From Longimicrobiales bacterium (GTDB lineage: Bacteria > Gemmatimonadota > Gemmatimonadetes > Longimicrobiales > Gaopeijiaceae): a DNA stretch of 64,000 nucleotides. The first letter of the stretch is position 1. The number at the start of each line of letters is the position of its first letter. The DNA lies in NCBI GenBank assembly GCA_958295645.1, contig OY282361.1, forward strand, positions 1,640,501-1,704,500. Direction: 5' to 3'. A program made the position numbers and the translations under genes. The notes beneath the pieces were generated by a model that made no database searches, had not been told where the DNA came from, and worked only from the letters and a program-made list of their open reading frames with translations. Below, in pieces: positions 41,521-51,515 of the stretch.

Positions 41521-43140
41521 CTAATTCGCCCGAAACAGTTCAGAATACTGACGGAGCCTCGACACTACTTCGTCAAAAAGTCCTTCCTTGCCTGCCAGCA
41601 TCTCCGCCAACCGATCCTCAACCGTGTTGGTCGCTTCTAAAACATATACCGTGACCGCCCTACGTTGTCCAATGCGATGGACGCGATCTATCGCCTGCTT
41701 GTTAGCCGACGGATTCCACCACCGATTGATCAGAAGTACATGATTAGCATCTACCAGTGACAACCCTTCGCCGGCCGCACGCATCGACGCCAATAAGACA
41801 CCACGTTTGACTGAATAGAAGTCATCAAGCAACGTCTGTCGTTGTTTCGCATTCAAGCTACCTTCATATATTCCACAGACAGGTACGTCTACATCCGCTA
41901 AACGCAGTCCAAGTAACCTGAGCGGTTCCAATAAATACGAAAACACTACTGCTTTACAGTTCGGACGGCTACAAACATCTTCAATAATCTCTACCGCACG
42001 ATCTATTTTGGCACTGTCTCTTGTTATGCGATCGTAATCGCAAATTTCACGAAGACGGCTAAAGACCGAAAGCGTGTTGTTCGTCGTTCCCATCTCCGCC
42101 GCAGTTCGTGCATAAGCGGCACGTTGCCGCGGCAATAACTCAACTCGCTCCATCCTGTATTCGATCGGCGGCAAGTCAGATAACACATCACCTTTTTCTC
42201 GCCGCAGGACGTAGGGTCGTATCTTGGCACGCAACATCCACGGTGCGAGATCGCGGTCACGCGAACTAAACACTGATGGCATCAATAAACTCATCAACCC
42301 GATGACATCCAACTCATCCTTCTCAAGCGGTGTTCCTGTCAGTGCCCATACCCAATCTGCTTCAATTCGTCCGACGCCAGCCGCCACCTGCGATTGCCAG
42401 TTCTTCACTCTATGAGCTTCATCCAGAATTAACAATTCAGGAGGCTTCTGCACGATCGCATCAAACGGTTTACGATTCTGTTCATAGTTAGTGATCATCA
42501 CGTGGGCTTTCCCCCAAAGGCTTTCGAAAGCATCGCGAGCCGACGACGCTCCGGCTATTCGAACACACACTTCCGGCGCCCACCGCCCGAACTCAATCGC
42601 CCAGTTTCGCAAGAGAGAGGTTGGAGCCATAACCAAAAGCCGTCGAATCCTTCCTTGCTCAAGCAGTCGCTTTGCAGCAACTATCACTTGGATGGTCTTC
42701 CCCAACCCCATGTCGTCAGCGAGGAGCAATCTCTGTGCCTTCAATAATCTACGAACACCTGCTTTCTGATACACGTACAACGGCAAGCGTCTTCGTTCCG
42801 CCGTCAAAAGCGGCATGAGCATCCTACCCAATGCTGGTACGCGCTCCTGACTCGACCACGCGTTGGGTATGGGCGGCAGTGACATCGTTACCTGCCGGCC
42901 CTGGCTCAAACGGTCGCCAATCCATCCATCAGCCATGGCACTCCACTCAATTGCCTTGGCCAGCCTCCTCGCAACGAAATCCCGATGCGGTTCCGACGCC
43001 GACGCCACGGCTGTTAAACGTGCGGCATTATCCAACCGTGCGCAATCAACCCAATACCGGCCAGACCTCGACATTCCGCAATTGTCGACTTCTACAACGC
43101 GCCGTGCGTGAAAGTAAACGCGAGATGTCAGAGCTTCCAC
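41521..43140 (-). CDS. SNF2-family DNA helicase/translocase of the defence island
   Basis: A 539-aa superfamily 2 ATPase. Walker A is in LLLADDMGLGKTIQVIVAAK, motif II LLILDEAHRVKNW, motif III ALTGTPLEK and motif VI RWWNPSANKQAIDRVHRIGQ. It would move along or remodel DNA using ATP. The first 100 residues hold no nuclease I recognise. It is the last gene of the island and markedly AT-rich (line 42001-42060 is 42% G+C). A GTG start at 43140 follows a GGAAGGGAAAGAA stretch; an 84-base gap separates it from the DGQHR gene. Confidence 0.9.
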   Translation of the reverse strand: MEALTSRVYFHARRVVEVDNCGMSRSGRYWVDCARLDNAARLTAVASASEPHRDFVARRLAKAIEWSAMADGWIGDRLSQGRQVTMSLPPIPNAWSSQERVPALGRMLMPLLTAERRRLPLYVYQKAGVRRLLKAQRLLLADDMGLGKTIQVIVAAKRLLEQGRIRRLLVMAPTSLLRNWAIEFGRWAPEVCVRIAGASSARDAFESLWGKAHVMITNYEQNRKPFDAIVQKPPELLILDEAHRVKNWQSQVAAGVGRIEADWVWALTGTPLEKDELDVIGLMSLLMPSVFSSRDRDLAPWMLRAKIRPYVLRREKGDVLSDLPPIEYRMERVELLPRQRAAYARTAAEMGTTNNTLSVFSRLREICDYDRITRDSAKIDRAVEIIEDVCSRPNCKAVVFSYLLEPLRLLGLRLADVDVPVCGIYEGSLNAKQRQTLLDDFYSVKRGVLLASMRAAGEGLSLVDANHVLLINRWWNPSANKQAIDRVHRIGQRRAVTVYVLEATNTVEDRLAEMLAGKEGLFDEVVSRLRQYSELFRAN

Positions 43141-43224: not shown

Positions 43225-44607
43225 CTACCCTAAGGACCGGCTAGATTCAATATCAGTCCACATTCCATTTTTTTTATCATCCGACACATTGTGTAACAAA
43301 TAGAATTCCCATTCCTCTCGAAGAGTCTTTATGTCATCATTGTCTAGAGATACTATGCCAAGTTGCCACATCAAGATTCGCTCCACAACAACCACAGCTT
43401 TCGGCCGTTCCTCGTTTCTCATCTTCCAAGAGTCACTTCCGTCCGGAATCAACAACAGGTTCCGCCACGGTGGGCGACGCAATGACCAGTCAATACCCGC
43501 CAATGGCTTCAAGTCGTGCTCAGATACCGAAGTGCTGTCGCCAAGTAGTTGCCGGGCTAGTTTCGCGACCAGCTCTTGCGTAACGGGCCAAAAGAGGGCC
43601 GAATCGTCACATTTATCGCCCTGCGTCCTATGGGGACAACCTTTTTCGCTTTCGCGAGAGTGGCATCGCATACTCGCCGGATTGTTGCGCAACGCAGGTA
43701 GGACAAGGATTAGATTATTCCAAATGTTACTCAATTCTTCAAAAAGTTGATCTAGCTCGTCATCATCTAACCGAAAAGCCGTAAACGTCTTGTCCTTCCA
43801 ACCTGCATTTAGTCGTTTCGCCGAGTTCAGAAGATGTTTATTCATGGCATACAACGTCTCCAGGCTCGTGAAGACACTGCTTTGCTTGGTGACGTTCTTG
43901 CCCTTTCTCATTTTGATTCTGGGCGATTGTCTATAAGGTGCCTCTTTGGCCATGAAGAATTCATGTTCGGTGATCAGGCGTCGTGTGAGGATTGCGAAGG
44001 TGTCGTCTTCGTCCATCACGATGTTTGTGAAATGAGAAGTGGGTTTAGCGTATCGATTGAGATTGCCAAATAGACGGCGGTACCGCTTGAAGAAATCACT
44101 TGGATGATCCGCCTCCGTAGGCATCACAACAATGACAGAAATCTCTTCGTTAGCAAATCCGGCCGGGGTATTGCGCCATTCATCGCCGGCTTTGGGATCG
44201 AGAAGTGTCCTGATCGCCGAAAGACGGTGTTGGCCATCCAGTGCATAATATTTTTGCGTTCCGTCAAATTTGAGTACGCCAAAGGCAGAAGCGAGACGAG
44301 GGTCATCTCTGAAAATTTCGAATTTGGGATCATCTGCTATGGAAATGGGATACCAAACGGGGTTTCCTTCAAGCGCAGCGACAACGAGTGAAGAAAAGAA
44401 GCGATCTTGTTGTCTTTGCAGATATGCGACGATTTCCTGCTTTACTCGCGATTCATTGATGATCCGCTGGATGGCGTCATCCAAAGTGTGATCCTGGTGG
44501 ATGTCATGAGCGAACTTGACCTGCTCTTGAACCTCTCTCATTGTGAGCTTGACTATGAAGTAGGTCCACCGGCCCATCGTGGCCCGAATTGCGGGGTAAA
44601 GATTCAT
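43225..44607 (-). CDS. dndB: DGQHR-domain (DndB-like) protein
   Basis: A 460-aa protein with the signature YALDGQHRLSAIRTLL at residues 121-136. The DGQHR domain is shared by DndB, the regulator of DNA phosphorothioation, and by the DpdB component of 7-deazaguanine systems. The N-terminus (TYFIVKLTMREVQEQVKFAHD) and FGNLNRYAKPTSHFTNIVMDEDD are also DndB-like. It is longer than typical DndB (about 360-380 aa) and carries an extra Cys/His stretch (RCHSRESEKGCPH...KCDD) that might bind metal. ATG 44607 overlaps the GIY-YIG stop (ATGA). Very AT-rich (line 43321-43380 is 38% G+C). The symbol marks the family, not proven function. Confidence 0.82.
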   Translation of the reverse strand: MNLYPAIRATMGRWTYFIVKLTMREVQEQVKFAHDIHQDHTLDDAIQRIINESRVKQEIVAYLQRQQDRFFSSLVVAALEGNPVWYPISIADDPKFEIFRDDPRLASAFGVLKFDGTQKYYALDGQHRLSAIRTLLDPKAGDEWRNTPAGFANEEISVIVVMPTEADHPSDFFKRYRRLFGNLNRYAKPTSHFTNIVMDEDDTFAILTRRLITEHEFFMAKEAPYRQSPRIKMRKGKNVTKQSSVFTSLETLYAMNKHLLNSAKRLNAGWKDKTFTAFRLDDDELDQLFEELSNIWNNLILVLPALRNNPASMRCHSRESEKGCPHRTQGDKCDDSALFWPVTQELVAKLARQLLGDSTSVSEHDLKPLAGIDWSLRRPPWRNLLLIPDGSDSWKMRNEERPKAVVVVERILMWQLGIVSLDNDDIKTLREEWEFYLLHNVSDDKKNGMWTDIESSRSLG

Positions 44608-45107
44608 GTCGTGTCTTTCTCCTGGGGGATGACGTCTTCGGTTAACGCGACGCCTTCTTGAATAATGGCTGCTATCTGGTAACCCGCGGTCACACCGAGC
44701 GCTAGCCTGTCGCTTGCGACGGGACCGAAGGCATCTTGCAACTTCTGTTCCACCACTCGCCGCTTCAGGGTGTCGTCTGGCATAATGAAGAAATGGAACT
44801 TGAGATTCTTGAAAAACCGAATACGGCGCACGTTCGTAGTATTGCCAAGATGATCGCCGAAGCGCGCGCGCAGGTTCTGTGTCTGGCCAACATAAAGCGG
44901 ACACCATGACGACGAGAACTTGCCTTGGATCGGAGGCGAGCCGCTGATCACGTACACGCCAGGTGTCTCCGGTGGCTGTTGTCGCCACTGTTCGAGAAAT
45001 GGTACAGTTTGCCAGGGTGCGACATCGAGTACGCTGACAGCAAGGACTTCCCAATGCTCGACATCTAAGCTCCAGCCGCGCGGCAAGGATTTCCCTAGAG
45101 ATGGCAT
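44604..45107 (-). CDS. GIY-YIG nuclease-domain protein
   Basis: A 167-aa protein with a single GIY-YIG endonuclease domain. Visible are PGVYVISGSPP and LYVGQTQNLRARFGDH (the two Tyr strands and the Arg helix) and the catalytic Glu in RRVVEQKLQDAF. It has an N-terminal extension of about 50 residues (VEHWEVLAVSVLDVAPW). Its ATG overlaps the end of the PAPS-reductase-like gene by 13 bases and its stop overlaps the DGQHR start, so it is embedded in the operon. It is the only obvious nuclease in the island and so the best candidate for DNA cutting. The AT-rich composition begins here (line 44761-44820 is 43% G+C). Confidence 0.87.
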   Translation of the reverse strand: MPSLGKSLPRGWSLDVEHWEVLAVSVLDVAPWQTVPFLEQWRQQPPETPGVYVISGSPPIQGKFSSSWCPLYVGQTQNLRARFGDHLGNTTNVRRIRFFKNLKFHFFIMPDDTLKRRVVEQKLQDAFGPVASDRLALGVTAGYQIAAIIQEGVALTEDVIPQEKDTT

Positions 45108-45895
45108 ATCGCGCAACCCTCCGCAAGCTCCGGCGCGGGGATGGCTTCTCGCCGAGGCTGGGCCGCGATCTCTTCCAAGGTGCGACCGTCCACCCACGTG
45201 AAGCCGGTCGTCTCGTACTGCTTGGCACGTTCGAACCATTCGGGGTGCCGCTCTTTGAGGCCCTGCCACTCGCCGATCTGCTGATAGAAGCAGAAGTAGC
45301 AGCCCGAGCGGGAACGCCACTCGTAGTAGCTCGGCAGGCCGAGGCCGGACTCCTCGAGGATCATCCGGATGTCGTGGAGTCCCAAGGAATGGTCCTTGAA
45401 CGGGTAGACGGGAACGATGTTGGGTTGCTCGGAGATCACAGGAGGCTTCTGGGACTGGTAGCCTTCTCTGGTCTCGTCGCCTCGGATGCCGATGTAGCTG
45501 AAGGCTTGGTCGTCGCCGACGTGGCGCTCGAAGGGCTTGATCTTGAGGACGCGCGTGCACCAGCGGGCGCGGGGGCTCGGGAGGAAGCCGCCGTAGACTT
45601 CGTTGAGCCAGATGTCGAACGGGTTTCGGCCCGGCTTCTTGGCGACGCCGATGAGGTCGAGGGCGTTCAGGTGGACGATGTCCTGCCCCAGGACGGCTTC
45701 GAGACGGGCTAGGTACTGGTACGTCTCGGGGAGCTCGCAACCGGTGTCGCAGAAGACGTATTCGACCTCCAGATCCGGGTACTGGTCCTGCAGGTAGAGG
45801 GCGAGGGCCGCCGAGTCCTTGCCGCCAGAGACGTTCACGATGTGCCTGTGCCCGTTCCCATTGCCGATCGCGACTGCCTCGGCGACGGTCGTCAC
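45095..45895 (-). CDS. sspD: PAPS-reductase-like ATP pyrophosphatase (SspD/DndC-like)
   Basis: A 266-aa adenine-nucleotide alpha-hydrolase that in phosphorothioation systems activates the DNA backbone or carries sulfur. The PP-loop is VNVSGGKDSAALALYLQ (residues 20-36), followed by YVFCDTGCELPETYQYL. Further cysteines at ARWCTRVLKIKP, SGCYFCFYQQ and the terminal GCAICHL could hold an Fe-S cluster as in DndC. It is shorter than classic DndC, which suits the Ssp type. GTG 45895 overlaps the ATPase stop (GTGA). The symbol is by inference from the neighbours: cysteine desulfurase, DUF4007 and P-loop ATPase. Confidence 0.83.
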   Translation of the reverse strand: MTTVAEAVAIGNGNGHRHIVNVSGGKDSAALALYLQDQYPDLEVEYVFCDTGCELPETYQYLARLEAVLGQDIVHLNALDLIGVAKKPGRNPFDIWLNEVYGGFLPSPRARWCTRVLKIKPFERHVGDDQAFSYIGIRGDETREGYQSQKPPVISEQPNIVPVYPFKDHSLGLHDIRMILEESGLGLPSYYEWRSRSGCYFCFYQQIGEWQGLKERHPEWFERAKQYETTGFTWVDGRTLEEIAAQPRREAIPAPELAEGCAICHL

Positions 45896-48800
45896 TGCAT
45901 TGTCTCGGCGACGGTCGGCGGCCGCTCCCGCAGAACCGCCGCCAATGCTTCCAAACGACGAGCCGCTTCGTCGCTGCCTAGCACCTCCGCCAATTGTTCG
46001 GCCGCCTGCCGCGTCCGGGCATTGGCCAAGCCGGCGAGGCCGCTTCTGATCGCCGGATCGAGGCCGGATTCCTGGACCAAGGCGACTGCCGTGGCTTCGA
46101 TGACCTCGAAGGCGTTTCGCAGCTGGCGGCGGAAGGTCGAGACCATGGTGTCGTCCCATTGCTGGACAGGGAGGCCAACGAGCAATGTGGAGAGGGCGTT
46201 CACCAACGCGTCATCGTCCTTGTAGCGAGACGCCAAGCGGCTCAGCACGCCTTTTGTGACTTGGTCCGGCAGGCGACGAACGAAGGGCTTGGAAAAAAAC
46301 GAGGCCCATGCGACAGCTTGGCCCCGCACGCCATCGACCGCGCCGTTGGCAAGCGCGCTCCCACCGCCGTCCGCCGTCCGGTCGTCGCCGGTGTCGCTCG
46401 ACAATACTCCATTGCCGCTCGCCACCCCGTTGGTCCCCAGAGCATCTCCGTTCCCGGCGACGCCCCTGCCGACCCCGTTGGCCATGCCCCGCGCCGCCAG
46501 GGCGTCGCTCAAGGCTTGGACTGCCTCCTGCCGGAAGATGTTCCCGACCCCCTCCAACTCCGCCTTGAGATTCGCGACCCGACCCAACAATTGCCGAGGC
46601 TTGGCCACGGTTGCCCCCACCCATCGAGGCAATCGATCCAGGAACAGCCCAACGGGATCCGGCGAGTCCATCTCCATCACGAACGAACGAGCCTCCCGTG
46701 ACACGTACCGCGAGTTGACAACGCCTGCAGGCAACGTCTGCCGCCAAGCCAGGACAGCTCCCATGCAGGCTCGGAGGAGGTCCTTCTCGGTCGCAATCGC
46801 GTCGTCGCTTCCCCCAAACAGATCGCGAATCCCCTCCAAGTACGTCCTCTCCTGGGCGCTGACGCCCACTACGTCCAAGAGATACCGGTCGGGGTACTTC
46901 GCCATGTCCTCGACGACGGAGGGCAAAAGGTCGTCCACGAACCGGTCCCGGCAACGAACCGTCGCGGCGGTCGGGAATGCTCGGAAGCCCGCAGCCAGCA
47001 ACAAGGGCAAGAGTCCCTCGCGTACCCCGAAGGGTGGCTCCGTCAGTTCGTCAAGCAAAGATTGAAAGCTCTTGGCCTTGCCGGGTTCCACGAAGAAGTG
47101 GCGGATGCGGGCCCAGACGGCTTTGAGGCCCGGGCGGTCCAGGTCCTCGGGAGACGCCAGAACCCAAGTCCTGCCATTTTGGCAGGTCTTGTCGTCTTCA
47201 GAGATCGAAATACTGCCATTTTGGCAGTACAGTCCCGTCCGCAGGAAGACGCACCTGAAGATCGCCTTGTCTGCGAAGTTGCCCTCGATGCCGAGGTCTT
47301 CCTGGCCGTAGCGTTCCAACAGACCGAGTTCGACCTTCTTGCGGGCGTTCACGATCACGGGAGACGGCGACCGCCGAACCACCATTTCCGAGTCGATCTC
47401 GGGCGCGCACGGGAACACTTCTCCCATGGCGCGCGAGAGCACGCGGCGAAGCTCCGGAACATCGGTCGCCTCGACCGGACGGCTCTTGTAGAACCAGCGG
47501 CTTCCGTTGGGCTGAGGACGCAACACGCGGTCCACGAGAGGCTGGAGCCCAGTACGAGCGTCGTCGGTCAGGTGAGCCAGTTCGGCCCCGACCATGGGAT
47601 CGCTGCCGATCATGTCCTGATCGGCGTGCATCCGCAACAGACACCACAGATCGACGGCGGCCTCGCGGAGCGCTGCCGTCTCGCGGGCAACTGCGACAAA
47701 CAGTCGAGGGTCGTCGATGCTGGCCGCCAAGCCCTCCGCCTGGCCAAGCTCTTCTGCGTCCCGGGGCAACACGTGAAGCACACGACCATCCGTGCCGGGC
47801 TTCCAACCCTCCAGCCGCATCCGGTCCCGGAACGCCTCCAATCCGGCGACCGTCGCATACTCGGCTTCCAAGTAACGCCTGATCCCGCACCGGGCGTTGT
47901 ACTCCACGGGCCGCCAAACCGGTGGAGGGAGCTCGCACGTCAGAAACGAGGCCAGATCGAAGTCGCCGGCGTGGCGCATCTTCTCGTCTTCCAGGCGCCC
48001 GCGCAGGTCCACGTCCGTGCCGTGCCAGACCACCACTTGGTCCGAGTGACGGCGGTGCACGAGAAGGCGCCGTTTCACGAGCCCGCTGATCGCACGGCCA
48101 ACCCGAGCCTTCCGGTCTTCGCCGACGACCCCCAACGCGAAAGCGAGCTGCTTGCGGGTCGCATGGCTGCGCTCGCCGCTCAGGCCCAAGCCCAGGAGGA
48201 ACGCGCTCTTGAGAGACTCCGCCTCAAGCGATCCATCCGGCACCTTGCCCAACGCGCTCTCGGTCTCCAGCCAAGGGCGCTGGGTCCCGCCGGCGCCTCC
48301 GTCCGTGCGAAAGTCGCCTCGGAAGTAGTCGTACAAGGCGCCCGGCGAGACCGGCGCGTCCAATGGCGTCCATTGCAGGAACGAGAACAGCGTTCGCTCG
48401 TTCTGGGCGACCCGGGCGGCCACGCGAGGCAACAAGTAGACGGTGGCCGGAGCAAGGGGATGGGCCGCCGCCAGAATGCCGGGCAAGCGGTCTTCCGCGA
48501 TGTCCGGGAACATTCCAACGTCCCTCGCCTTGGTCGCCAAGCCGACAAAGTCCGCTTCGGGCGCTTCGACGGCGCGGCTCTCGGCAACGAGGGAGCCCAC
48601 CAGTTCGTACAACTCGGTGGAGTCGTCCAAGTATTGGAGGGTCTCGAACCGGCCTTCGATCTTGGCCCACTCCCGTCGCAACCCCGGCGGCAAACCGGCG
48701 GCATACCCTAGAAGGGATCGGTGAAGAAGCAACACGAGCGACACGGGAACGATCGAACTGCGGCTGGCCACTTCGGCCAGGACCTGCAAGACGTCCAGTT

Positions 48801-49380
48801 CCTCCGGCCTGCCCTCCGAGACCAACCCTTGGAGGTGGCGTCCAAATTCGTCCCACACGATCACCAAGCGGTCGCGTCCGCTCTGCTTCAGCTTGTCGAG
48901 GCAGGCATCCACAAGCGCGGGGATGTCGTCCGCCCGCGCGGCGCCCAACCCGGCGACGGTTCGCGCCTCCCTGCCCAGCGCCGCTCGGCGCATTGCGTCC
49001 AGCAGACCCTGCTTCAGCGCGGCCGGGCCGGAACCCACATGCCCGTAGAGCGGCACGAACAGTCCCTGTCTTCGCGCCGTCCGCCTCCGCATCGCCCGTC
49101 TTTGCAGGCCCGCGCCGATTCCCGCCAAGCGGCCCTCGACAAGGCGCAACATCTCCGCGGCCTCCGGGTGATTATCTACCAAGTGACCCAGATACCCCGC
49201 CGTGATGGACTTGCCGGAGCCATACGGCGCAACGACGAAGACCGCGTTTCCGTTCTTGCCCTGAAGCAACGACGAGACCAGTCGAACGGATTTCGAGGTC
49301 GGTCGAAAGTGCTCGAACCGCTCCGGATGCTCCGCGTCGAGCTGGATGTTGATGGAGCGGAGGAAGGCGCTCTGGACCAT
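45892..49380 (-). CDS. sspC: large P-loop ATPase of the phosphorothioation operon (SspC-like)
   Basis: An 1162-aa protein. Walker A is AVFVVAPYGSGKSITAGYLG (about 45-65) and Walker B LVIVWDEFGRHLQGL (about 170), an AAA/ORC-like arrangement. The middle has winged-helix-like segments (LAFALGVVGEDRKARVGRAI). A low-complexity Gly/Asn/Val insert (GMANGVGRGVAGNGDALGTN and on, near 1000) splits the C-terminal part. SspC in SspABCD is an ATPase; position and partners suggest this is its counterpart, but sequence homology could not be tested. ATG 49380 begins 2 bases after the DUF4007 stop. GC-rich, unlike the distal genes. Confidence 0.75.
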   Translation of the reverse strand: MVQSAFLRSINIQLDAEHPERFEHFRPTSKSVRLVSSLLQGKNGNAVFVVAPYGSGKSITAGYLGHLVDNHPEAAEMLRLVEGRLAGIGAGLQRRAMRRRTARRQGLFVPLYGHVGSGPAALKQGLLDAMRRAALGREARTVAGLGAARADDIPALVDACLDKLKQSGRDRLVIVWDEFGRHLQGLVSEGRPEELDVLQVLAEVASRSSIVPVSLVLLLHRSLLGYAAGLPPGLRREWAKIEGRFETLQYLDDSTELYELVGSLVAESRAVEAPEADFVGLATKARDVGMFPDIAEDRLPGILAAAHPLAPATVYLLPRVAARVAQNERTLFSFLQWTPLDAPVSPGALYDYFRGDFRTDGGAGGTQRPWLETESALGKVPDGSLEAESLKSAFLLGLGLSGERSHATRKQLAFALGVVGEDRKARVGRAISGLVKRRLLVHRRHSDQVVVWHGTDVDLRGRLEDEKMRHAGDFDLASFLTCELPPPVWRPVEYNARCGIRRYLEAEYATVAGLEAFRDRMRLEGWKPGTDGRVLHVLPRDAEELGQAEGLAASIDDPRLFVAVARETAALREAAVDLWCLLRMHADQDMIGSDPMVGAELAHLTDDARTGLQPLVDRVLRPQPNGSRWFYKSRPVEATDVPELRRVLSRAMGEVFPCAPEIDSEMVVRRSPSPVIVNARKKVELGLLERYGQEDLGIEGNFADKAIFRCVFLRTGLYCQNGSISISEDDKTCQNGRTWVLASPEDLDRPGLKAVWARIRHFFVEPGKAKSFQSLLDELTEPPFGVREGLLPLLLAAGFRAFPTAATVRCRDRFVDDLLPSVVEDMAKYPDRYLLDVVGVSAQERTYLEGIRDLFGGSDDAIATEKDLLRACMGAVLAWRQTLPAGVVNSRYVSREARSFVMEMDSPDPVGLFLDRLPRWVGATVAKPRQLLGRVANLKAELEGVGNIFRQEAVQALSDALAARGMANGVGRGVAGNGDALGTNGVASGNGVLSSDTGDDRTADGGGSALANGAVDGVRGQAVAWASFFSKPFVRRLPDQVTKGVLSRLASRYKDDDALVNALSTLLVGLPVQQWDDTMVSTFRRQLRNAFEVIEATAVALVQESGLDPAIRSGLAGLANARTRQAAEQLAEVLGSDEAARRLEALAAVLRERPPTVAETMQ
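47170..47229 (-). repeat. two close perfect hairpins inside the ATPase gene
   Basis: cctgccattttggcagg (47170-47186; 7-bp stem, TTT loop) and tactgccattttggcagta (47211-47229; 8-bp stem, TTT loop) share the core tgccattttggca. They lie 24 bases apart within the ATPase coding region, where both encode a CQNG motif. In such GC-rich surroundings the AT-centred palindromes stand out. Confidence 0.85.
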
Positions 49381-49382
49381 GG

Positions 49383-50351
49383 CTAGGCGGCCTCTTCCCC
49401 AGCTTGGTCCGTCGAGTCGTAATAGCGCTTGATCCACTCGGGCGCAGGCACGCTCTTGCGGATGCGGACGATCCTCTCTCCGGCTTGGCCGTCCAGTCTG
49501 ACGAGTCCGCCGGCCTCGTAGCTCGCCACCAGCTCGTAGAGCGCCTCGGCGGTCAATGCGAAGACCCGGCCGGGGGCGCCGATTTCATGAGCAAGCTCGG
49601 TGAGGGATCTGTCGCGGGCCGCCGACGGCCGATCAGTCCGCCGCCCGCCGACCCGTCGTCCGCCGGCTTGGCGGCCACTAGCTTCCCGGCCCAGGAAGCG
49701 TTTCCGGGCAACAGCGAGGGCATATCCGAAGAGTTCGAACGGAATGGGCTTAAGGCCCCGATCGACGTGGTAGAAGCCCGTCTGGCGGGAATGGAGCAAG
49801 ATACCGAGTTCGCTCAACGGACATTCCATCACGTCTTCCGGATCCCCCTCCGGGCGCGGCACGCTGACCGAATAGGAACGGAGGAGGCAAGCCACATCTC
49901 GATCGAGGGTCCGAGGACTCGGCGTCCTGCCGCCCGCGGAAGCCAAGTGACGGCGCAAGGCCTCGACGCAAACCGGACGCTCGAACCGGGCCGAGCTGAA
50001 TACGTTGAAGAACCAGTTCCATGTGAACGCGAACGCAGGCCGGTTGACCAACTGAACGTGAACGGCCCACCACGTGCCCGGAAGCAGGAAGTAGCGGTCG
50101 CGCTCCCAGACCATCTTCCCGAAGTCCGTCGGGCGAAGCGCCTTGGTGCGGCGGCCGCCGCTCAGCTCTTTCTCGGCCAACCCGGTGGCCAAGAGCCAAT
50201 GATGGATCGACTTGGCCATGTTCCGTCCCACGCCTAGCCAGTCCGCCACGTCCGGAGCGTCCATGCGTTGCGGGTCTTCCACGACGAGACGAAGCCCCTT
50301 GTAGAGCCATCCGCCGCGGATCGCGAAAGTCTGGTGTCCCCCGAAGCGCAC
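49383..50351 (-). CDS. sspB: DUF4007 family protein (SspB-like)
   Basis: A 322-aa protein beginning MRFGGHQTFAIRGGWLYKGL, a DUF4007 hallmark, with winged-helix-like parts (WLGVGRNMAKSIHHWLLATGL) and a C-terminal LVRLDGQAGERIVRIRK. From memory, DUF4007 proteins sit beside PAPS-reductase-like genes and include the SspB nickase of single-strand phosphorothioation; I could not verify this. An Arg/Gly-rich linker (about 215-245) looks lineage-specific. GTG 50351 has an ideal AAGGAGG site 6 bases upstream, overlapping the desulfurase stop region, which implies strong coupled translation. Confidence 0.8.
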   Translation of the reverse strand: MRFGGHQTFAIRGGWLYKGLRLVVEDPQRMDAPDVADWLGVGRNMAKSIHHWLLATGLAEKELSGGRRTKALRPTDFGKMVWERDRYFLLPGTWWAVHVQLVNRPAFAFTWNWFFNVFSSARFERPVCVEALRRHLASAGGRTPSPRTLDRDVACLLRSYSVSVPRPEGDPEDVMECPLSELGILLHSRQTGFYHVDRGLKPIPFELFGYALAVARKRFLGREASGRQAGGRRVGGRRTDRPSAARDRSLTELAHEIGAPGRVFALTAEALYELVASYEAGGLVRLDGQAGERIVRIRKSVPAPEWIKRYYDSTDQAGEEAA

Positions 50352-50360
50352 GAGTCCTCC

Positions 50361-51515
50361 TTAGGCGACGGCGAAGCGAAGCAGGTTCGCATGCACGGCG
50401 GAAACGGCTTCGACGGCGCCGGCCACGTCGGCCACGCTGTTGAGTTCGGAGAACGCAAACCGCACGCTGGCGTACGCTTCGTGCTCGGAGAGGCCCATTG
50501 CCCGAAGGACGTAGGAGGGCTCGGGCCGCTGGTTGGTGCAGGCGGAACTTTGGGAGCACCGGACGCCCGTTTGGTCCAGGCGGACGACGAGCGCCTCGCC
50601 GTCGAGGTCCAAGAAGCGGACGTTGGACGTGTTGGGCAGGCGGTCGGCACCCGATCCGTTCACCGCTCTCGCAAGCCCTCGCCTCGCAAGGCCCGCCTCG
50701 AAGGCGTCCCGCATCTCGCGGGTGGCCCCCGCGACGGTCTCGAAACGGTTCTCTCTGAGCGCCAACGCAACGCCGAGACCGACGATCGCCGGGACATTCT
50801 CGGTGCCAGGGCGCAGCGCCGTCTCTTGCTCTCCCCCGAACATCAACGGCCGAAGCAGGCTTCGGTCCCGCGCCACCAGGGCCCCCGCGCCGAGAGGGCC
50901 GTGCAACTTGTGGCCGGACAACGACAGGAAGTCGACGGGCGAGGCGTCCAAGTCCACCGGAATCTTGCCGACCGCTTGGACCGCGTCCGTGTGGAAAAGG
51001 CCCCCGAGACTTCGGACTCGCCCGGCCAACCCGAAAATGGGCTGGACGACTCCCGTCTCGTTGTTCGCCCACTGGACGGAGACCAGCGTCCGGCCCGGCG
51101 CGACCGCTTCGGCCACTTCCTCTTCCCGGACGAGCCCGTTCGAGTCCACGGGCAGGACCACCACCTCGCGACCCAGTCGTTCGAGTTCTTCGGCAGCGGC
51201 AAGAACCGACGAATGCTCCACGGCAGTCGTGACGAGCCGGTAACCGTTCATCGGCCCGCCGAGGAGGCTCTGCAACACCAAGTTGTTGGCCTCGGTGGCG
51301 CCTCCAGTGAAGACCACGGCGGCAGGATCAGTCGACAGGAGGGCCGCCACCTGCTCCCTGGCCCGCCACAACTGTTCCCTGGCCCGCGCGCCCGCCGCAT
51401 GAACGCTCGACGGGTTGCCGCAACCGTCGTGCATGGCCCCGGCGACGGCTTCCGCAACCTCCGGCAGAACGCGAGTGGTGGCGTTGTTGTCCAGGTAGAT
51501 CTCCGGGCGGCTCAC
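50361..51515 (-). CDS. sspA: cysteine desulfurase (SspA/DndA-like)
   Basis: A 384-aa PLP enzyme that takes sulfur from cysteine. The N-terminus is EIYLDNNATTRVLPEV. A PLP-contact His lies in TAVEHSSVLAA, the PLP Lys in LSLSGHKLHGPLG, and the sulfur-accepting Cys in VRCSQSSACTNQRPEPSYVL. Here it feeds sulfur to the modification genes rather than to Fe-S assembly, judged from the operon. GTG 51515 overlaps the HTH gene stop (GTGA). It is a full-length NifS/IscS-type protein. Confidence 0.92.
   Translation of the reverse strand: MSRPEIYLDNNATTRVLPEVAEAVAGAMHDGCGNPSSVHAAGARAREQLWRAREQVAALLSTDPAAVVFTGGATEANNLVLQSLLGGPMNGYRLVTTAVEHSSVLAAAEELERLGREVVVLPVDSNGLVREEEVAEAVAPGRTLVSVQWANNETGVVQPIFGLAGRVRSLGGLFHTDAVQAVGKIPVDLDASPVDFLSLSGHKLHGPLGAGALVARDRSLLRPLMFGGEQETALRPGTENVPAIVGLGVALALRENRFETVAGATREMRDAFEAGLARRGLARAVNGSGADRLPNTSNVRFLDLDGEALVVRLDQTGVRCSQSSACTNQRPEPSYVLRAMGLSEHEAYASVRFAFSELNSVADVAGAVEAVSAVHANLLRFAVA

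Follow-up and report, generated by a model that had tools for sequence, protein, structure and literature searches.

Known phosphorothioate-based restriction systems

Restriction based on DNA phosphorothioate (PT) modification is already known. In SspABCD-SspFGH (PMC8092258), the sspABCD platform is accompanied by a three-gene distal module that encodes SspF (ATP-binding), SspG (of unknown function), and SspH (FtsK-like). In SspE (PMC9646914) and in the DndI of DndBCDE-DndI (PMC11662687), a ParB/sulfiredoxin-type (Srx-type) fold senses PT and switches a fused HNH (DUF1524) nickase through NTP hydrolysis. Wang et al. (2021; PMC8092258) reported 2,678 sspBCD loci, of which 196 have sspFGH, 199 have sspE, and 36 have both, so most PT-marking systems are without a named restriction partner.

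GIY-YIG (URI) nuclease genes near PT modification genes are also known: Krishnan et al. 2024 (PMC10853773) listed them around DndDE and took them for standalone nucleases that probably serve as backups, and the text that we consulted describes no pairing with a DGQHR protein, linkage to Ssp, or co-inheritance. DGQHR proteins (TIGR03187/TIGR04172; PMC3226654) are statistically tied to genomes with dnd genes, but no nuclease partner was described for them. Finally, CMoRE/PD-T4-3 (PMC12923530) uses a GIY-YIG nuclease in modification-dependent restriction, but it is a single protein with its own 5hmC-sensing domain, and it involves no PT, DGQHR protein, or helicase.

The locus that we describe here shares with SspABCD-SspFGH the sspABCD platform, a three-gene distal module, and the position of that module, which SspFGH occupies in the closest sspABCD relatives; however, SspF, SspG, and SspH have no counterpart in its cassette. 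It resembles SspE and DndI in its link to PT modification genes, in a putative sensor with a predicted ParB/Srx (NTPase-type) fold that goes with a nuclease, and in the QR and DGQ-R motifs. Unlike those proteins, it has a separate GIY-YIG protein instead of a fused HNH nickase, a putative sensor from the DndB family with Ile in place of Tyr, and an SNF2 protein. We found no published description of the pair or the trio as a unit in a search of mainly open-access journal papers.

An ssp operon that continues into a GIY-YIG/DGQHR/SNF2 trio

We analyzed a window of 64,000 nucleotides (69% G+C) from the 2.9-Mb single-contig genome of a Longimicrobiales bacterium. Along its minus strand, the genes are ordered sspA, sspB, sspC, sspD, GIY-YIG, DGQHR, SNF2. 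sspA (50361..51515) encodes a cysteine desulfurase (PADLOC SspA, 4e-118; Pfam Aminotran_5, 2.3e-67), and its GTG start at 51515 is our proposal from an alignment. sspB (49383..50351) encodes a DUF4007 protein (PADLOC SspB, 4e-99; Pfam DUF4007, 1.7e-54). sspC (45892..49380) encodes a large ATPase (PADLOC SspC, 7.7e-134); we use the ATG at 49380 as its start, with the GTG at 49437 open as an alternative. sspD (45095..45895) encodes an ATP pyrophosphatase that resembles PAPS reductase (PADLOC SspD, 1.5e-90). PADLOC thus finds the SspABCD gene set of ssDNA phosphorothioation, all on one strand and overlapping or nearly abutting, which agrees with the claim of the first-pass annotation that the trio is tied to phosphorothioation. 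Judging from operon membership, SspABCD probably marks the host DNA with PT.

The trio consists of a 167-amino-acid GIY-YIG protein (44604..45107), a 460-amino-acid DGQHR/DndB-like protein (43225..44607), and a 539-amino-acid SNF2-family helicase or translocase (41521..43140), all on the minus strand. Just as sspD overlaps sspC by 4 nt, the GIY-YIG gene overlaps sspD by 13 nt (the stop codon of sspD is at 45097-45095) and overlaps the DGQHR gene by 4 nt (ATGA, with the DGQHR start codon at 44607), so it is locked between its neighbors, as had been noticed from the sequence. The SNF2 gene starts 84 nt past the DGQHR gene and is preceded by a GGAAGG-like site. Our scan of the locus for promoters and terminators gave nothing above chance.

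This genome has a single copy of SspD, and the DGQHR protein is its sole member of the DndB family. Its two DUF262 proteins are encoded over 130 kb away, and by best match neither is SspE. The genes on either side of the locus are not related to defense: there is a POT-family transporter on one side and matches to OsmC and CutA1 on the other.

The G+C content of the trio is 0.48-0.55, compared to 0.64-0.68 for sspA-D. This might point to recent acquisition, but DGQHR genes are richer in A+T than their neighbors elsewhere as well (in L018 and L022), so low G+C is weak support for acquisition.

Predicted folds and conserved residues

The GIY-YIG protein's match to Pfam is borderline (21.4 and 22.9 bits, versus a curated cut-off of 22.6), so the homology is settled by a family profile and a structural model instead. 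When compared to PDB, a profile of 45 family members matched UvrC (1.7e-6) and R.Eco29kI (0.003), as well as T4 endonuclease II. A single-chain AlphaFold2 model (pLDDT 82) is similar to UvrC (Z = 9.8), T4 endonuclease II (8.9), Eco29kI (7.4), and CMoRE (9u75; 6.7). The two tyrosines, the arginine, and the glutamate that had been reported as intact are indeed present (Tyr52, Tyr72, Arg82, and Glu120), and in an alignment of 75 homologues they are nearly invariant (Tyr52 in 69 of 70; the other three in 74 of 75 each). Given the fold and these four residues, the protein belongs to the GIY-YIG nuclease superfamily. A fifth conserved residue, a C-terminal asparagine (column 132), is present in 63 of the 75 homologues and is Ser132 in the window. 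As this asparagine is not universal in the subfamily, membership in the superfamily stands, but it is less certain that the window's copy would be active.

The DGQHR protein matches Pfam's DndB family (E = 9.2e-34) and the DGQHR domain TIGR03187 (3.6e-31; 108.9 bits, cut-off 58.85). It scores far below the cut-offs of TIGR03233, the equivalog for the DndB regulator (59.1 versus 328 bits), and TIGR04172 (14.6 versus 450 bits). A single-chain AlphaFold2 model (pLDDT 90) has an N-terminal ParB/Srx domain and a helical C-terminal remainder; the fold matches have modest Z scores (ParB, 7.5; sulfiredoxin, 6.2; SspE, 5.0; BrxU, 5.0; DndI, 4.0), and Foldseek by itself found nothing significant for this model. 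For these two proteins, modeled as single chains, the structure prediction that had been suggested as a check gives the GIY-YIG and ParB/Srx folds.

The sensor motif of SspE is Y30-Q31-R32, and Y30 and Q31 are needed for PT sensing (PMC9646914). Under the "QR pair" homology (PMC4619093), the Gln-Arg of SspE is equated with Q47-R48 of the DGQHR protein, which is invariant among 47 DGQHR sequences; the position of the sensing tyrosine is isoleucine (I46) in the window. The similarity between profiles is weak, as HHalign aligned just the DGQ-R motif with SspE-type profiles, with a probability of 3.9%. The architecture of SspE and DndI (DUF262 and DUF1524 HNH in one protein) is absent: with Pfam, GmrSD_N scored 15.7 bits (cut-off 33.2) and GmrSD_C gave no match.

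The SNF2 protein matches Pfam's SNF2-rel_dom (1.1e-39) and Helicase_C (5.6e-14), and its motifs (DMGLGKT, DEAH, and QAIDRVHRIGQ) are intact. We found no nuclease domain in it. PADLOC's models for DpdE, ZorD, and DrmD match it about equally, and the comparison with Dpd systems made in the first-pass annotation is not needed.

The GIY-YIG/DGQHR pair is linked to phosphorothioation genes

Across 395 genomes from the window's phylum, all six matches to the GIY-YIG protein lie immediately 5' of a DGQHR gene, so the linkage between the two is beyond chance. These six loci are near ssp or dnd genes wherever we examined longer stretches. A tblastn search of plasmids with the GIY-YIG protein gave no match, because this protein is too divergent for a search with a single sequence; the DGQHR protein worked as a query.

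To survey the pair more broadly, we picked loci by similarity to the DGQHR protein alone and kept the best 80 of 466, which is a similarity-ranked and non-random sample. The hosts belong to well over ten phyla and include one archaeon. A GIY-YIG gene lies immediately 5' of the DGQHR gene, on the same strand, in 64 of these 80 loci, mostly with gaps of -4 to +40 nt; we noticed no natural fusion of the two among the loci. As annotated with profiles that were built from the same loci, 52 of the 64 pairs are near at least two of SspB, SspC, and SspD, four are near DndC and DndE, and one is near SspD only (57 pairs with PT genes). The other seven are in short or edge-cut stretches (3.4 to 13.3 kb), and all pairs with long flanks are near PT genes. 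The neighbors of the homologues are therefore PT genes and not unrelated, non-defense genes, which supports the original association of the nuclease with PT.

We also sampled 45 SspD loci irrespective of their neighbors. The pair was near SspD in 5 of 15 loci from the window's phylum (including the window), 0 of 10 from Pseudomonadota, 2 of 15 from cyanobacteria, and 2 of 5 from the phylum of Streptomyces. If we exclude the window, the pair is at 8 of 44 SspD loci, and SspFGH is at 5.

The distal module was exchanged

A genome may contribute two stretches under two locus identifiers, so we left the known duplicates (L020, L037, and L091) out of the tree and the distance tests. Across 50 loci, the distances for the GIY-YIG and DGQHR proteins are correlated (r = 0.58; matched in 0 of 999 permutations), as are the distances among SspB, SspC, and SspD (r = 0.53-0.75), but between these proteins and the pair, r is -0.05 to 0.12. 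With correlation within each unit and about none between them, the pair and SspBCD are two units that were repeatedly re-paired. The SNF2 gene is contiguous with the pair only in a subset of 17 loci. In these contiguous trios, r is 0.91 for GIY-YIG and DGQHR, 0.78 for SNF2 and DGQHR, 0.97 for SspC and SspD, and 0.36-0.55 between units; here SNF2 belongs to the cassette and has a weaker link to ssp.

A tree of SspBCD places the window, together with L014, L048, and L049, inside a clade that also holds four SspFGH systems (support 1.0), and trios are found at other places in the tree as well. The window's SspA-D are nearer to the proteins of SspFGH operons (L190, L215, and L216), with identities of 61-65% for SspD and 31-36% for SspC, than to those of other operons with the trio. 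Compared to the latter (such as L018 and L019), SspD and SspC are just 45-52% and 23-26% identical, but DGQHR is 43-51% identical. The closest relative, L014, matches the window on the ssp and cassette sides alike. In the plasmid sspABCD operons with the closest SspD that we examined (from Azospirillum, Microvirga, Sphingomonas, and Falsirhodobacter), an SspFGH module that includes FtsK is in the trio's slot. (We labeled a locus as SspFGH if it encoded a protein of roughly 1,750 amino acids that resembles FtsK and had two co-occurring genes in the gene order of Wang et al.)

Taken together, the nesting in the tree, the contrast in identities, and the SspFGH modules in the same slot imply that the distal module was swapped, and it is well supported that the trio is an exchangeable cassette. 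The first-pass annotation had suggested as much for the three genes; exchange holds up, but the unit that is found with both ssp and dnd genes is the GIY-YIG/DGQHR pair, which SNF2 joins contiguously in the 17 loci.

We also considered whether the trio might be SspFGH itself, and rejected this: SspF, SspG, and SspH are ATP-binding, unknown, and FtsK-like, and their profiles have no match in the region of the window's operon.

Proposed function of the pair

We think it reasonably probable that the window encodes a full Ssp PT operon in which the exchangeable GIY-YIG/DGQHR/SNF2 cassette takes up the restriction slot; this cassette would replace SspE or SspFGH and read the PT state of DNA. This proposal builds on the gene content, linkage, co-inheritance, module exchange, predicted folds, and conserved active sites described above. 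An effector role is supported by the conserved catalytic residues, the linkage to PT, the SspFGH slot, and operons with SspBCD-GIY-DGQHR and no other recognized effector, two of which (L066 and L203) have SspA right after the pair. CMoRE/PD-T4-3 is a precedent for a GIY-YIG enzyme in modification-dependent restriction, and the invariant Q47-R48 of the DGQHR protein would fit a sensor like that of SspE. We infer complex formation, PT sensing, cleavage, its polarity (whether marked or unmarked DNA is cut), and the role of the helicase. Once SspABCD has marked the host DNA, the DGQHR protein, whose predicted ParB/Srx fold is the one with which SspE and DndI sense PT, would be the sensor and probably a nucleotide-dependent switch. 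It would bind the GIY-YIG protein and license it to nick or cleave DNA that does not carry the PT pattern of the host. For the subtype found in the window, SNF2 might spend ATP on driving the complex along DNA or on remodeling it. By analogy, the simplest reading is that the pair splits the logic of SspE over two proteins, with another nuclease. Several observations speak against this proposal: the pair can accompany other effectors, the sensing Tyr of SspE is Ile here, the DGQHR and SspE profiles align at one motif only, the fold matches have modest Z scores, and the window's GIY-YIG protein has Ser in place of the usual Asn.

The pair could also be a backup suicide effector that does not read PT. 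In this scenario, the pair would cut DNA generally and kill the cell when the main PT restriction fails, and DGQHR would restrain the nuclease until it is triggered. Nucleases of the URI/GIY-YIG type were seen at the margins of Dnd neighborhoods, sometimes on the opposite strand, by Krishnan et al. 2024 (PMC10853773), who interpreted these standalone enzymes as failure-triggered effectors, in contrast to bona fide restriction enzymes. Pairs next to dnd genes are indeed often on the opposite strand. Furthermore, the pair is no strict alternative to the known effectors, because it is found beside SspFGH (in L064, L072, and L080), SspE (the pair's second variant, in L028), or a DUF262 protein (in L221); it can be an addition to other effectors and may have an accessory or backup role. 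However, in the window and in many relatives, the pair is inside the ssp operon, either directly after sspD or between sspD and sspA; it fills the SspFGH slot; and some operons have no other recognized effector. We consider the backup role unlikely.

An accessory role in modification seems about equally improbable. Here, DGQHR would be a DndB-like regulator that controls the density of PT, GIY-YIG would be a nickase or editor that helps to install, limit, or remove PT, and the helicase would open the DNA. Two papers (PMC10853773 and PMC4507180) present DndB as regulating PT modification. The pair's co-occurrence with complete effectors would fit, as would the gene order in L066 and L203, where SspA directly follows the pair (SspD/pair/SspA). 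On the other hand, the pair is dispensable for modification, as 36 of the 45 sampled SspD loci are without it, and the pair and the modification genes do not co-diverge. Also, dnd loci with the pair usually keep a separate dndB (L012, L068, L083, L087, L089, and L221). A role on the modification side is therefore less likely than that of a restriction effector: the pair is missing from most Ssp loci, and a separate dndB is retained at most of the dnd loci that have the pair.

It is very improbable that the pair acts independently, as a type IV-like enzyme against modified DNA of foreign origin, and merely shares defense islands with PT genes: ParB-fold/nuclease pairs of the GmrSD class act in this way, and the DGQHR fold matches BrxU too, but the linkage is operonic and specific to PT, while a general passenger of islands would have mixed neighbors.

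Tentatively, GIY-YIG and DGQHR might form a third general class of effector for PT-based restriction, a counterpart of SspE made of two proteins and using an unrelated nuclease. This class would move freely between Ssp and Dnd modules, have hosts in one archaeon and in well over ten phyla, and explain some of the large majority of sspBCD loci without sspE or sspFGH. The pair is a compact candidate for part of these missing restriction partners, and it offers a test of whether proteins from the DndB family read PT and do not just regulate it.

Other modules at ssp and dnd loci

A second variant of the pair has a GIY-YIG protein of about 220 amino acids and a mostly longer DGQHR protein, and in some loci it lies beside the first variant (L028:11702-14547, L043:7078-8474, L061:4019-7007, L198:5977-9002, L203:10680-13641; also L194). 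In four loci, a second and longer DGQHR gene lies beside GIY-YIG/DGQHR/SNF2 (L039:8129-11365, L045:8068-11392, L048:7691-11389, and L049:7643-11422). In Salmonella enterica Infantis SARB27 (L221:9312-13011), genes for GIY-YIG, DGQHR, and DUF262-type proteins are in a row and convergent to dndEDCB, within an integrative conjugative element. We found no near copy of this version in E. coli genomes.

Near SspD, the commonest module combines an SNF2 protein, a GHKL (HSP90-like) ATPase, and a PLD-like nuclease. It is found in about a third of the 45 SspD loci, which is more than for SspFGH. Examples next to SspBCD include L120:11998-16414, L126:3923-9671, L185:10316-14668, L189:10175-14623, L195:5270-9250, and L209:3462-7812, among others. 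Its proteins have just weak matches in PADLOC (PbeA, MzaB, and ZacB/DrmC). Another module next to SspD encodes a protein similar to sigma-70 region 4 or the RNA polymerase alpha-CTD, an SNF2 helicase, and a DndD-like ABC ATPase (L119:2832-9107, L121:10719-17778, L122:10296-17292, and L124:2594-9439); in L017, this module is followed by the GIY-YIG/DGQHR pair.

In our cyanobacterial search, two small genomes (G862 and G804; 1.8-2.3 Mb) had up to seven SspD-like genes each, and two stretches from them (L212 and L213) have an SspD-like gene with no SspB or SspC nearby. Finally, a stretch of a Thermomicrobium roseum plasmid (L217:4672-18666) resembles a cross between Ssp and BREX type 4: a single SspD is surrounded by a pair of DUF4007 genes and a pair of SspC/BrxC-like ATPases, and PglZ and BrxL come next.
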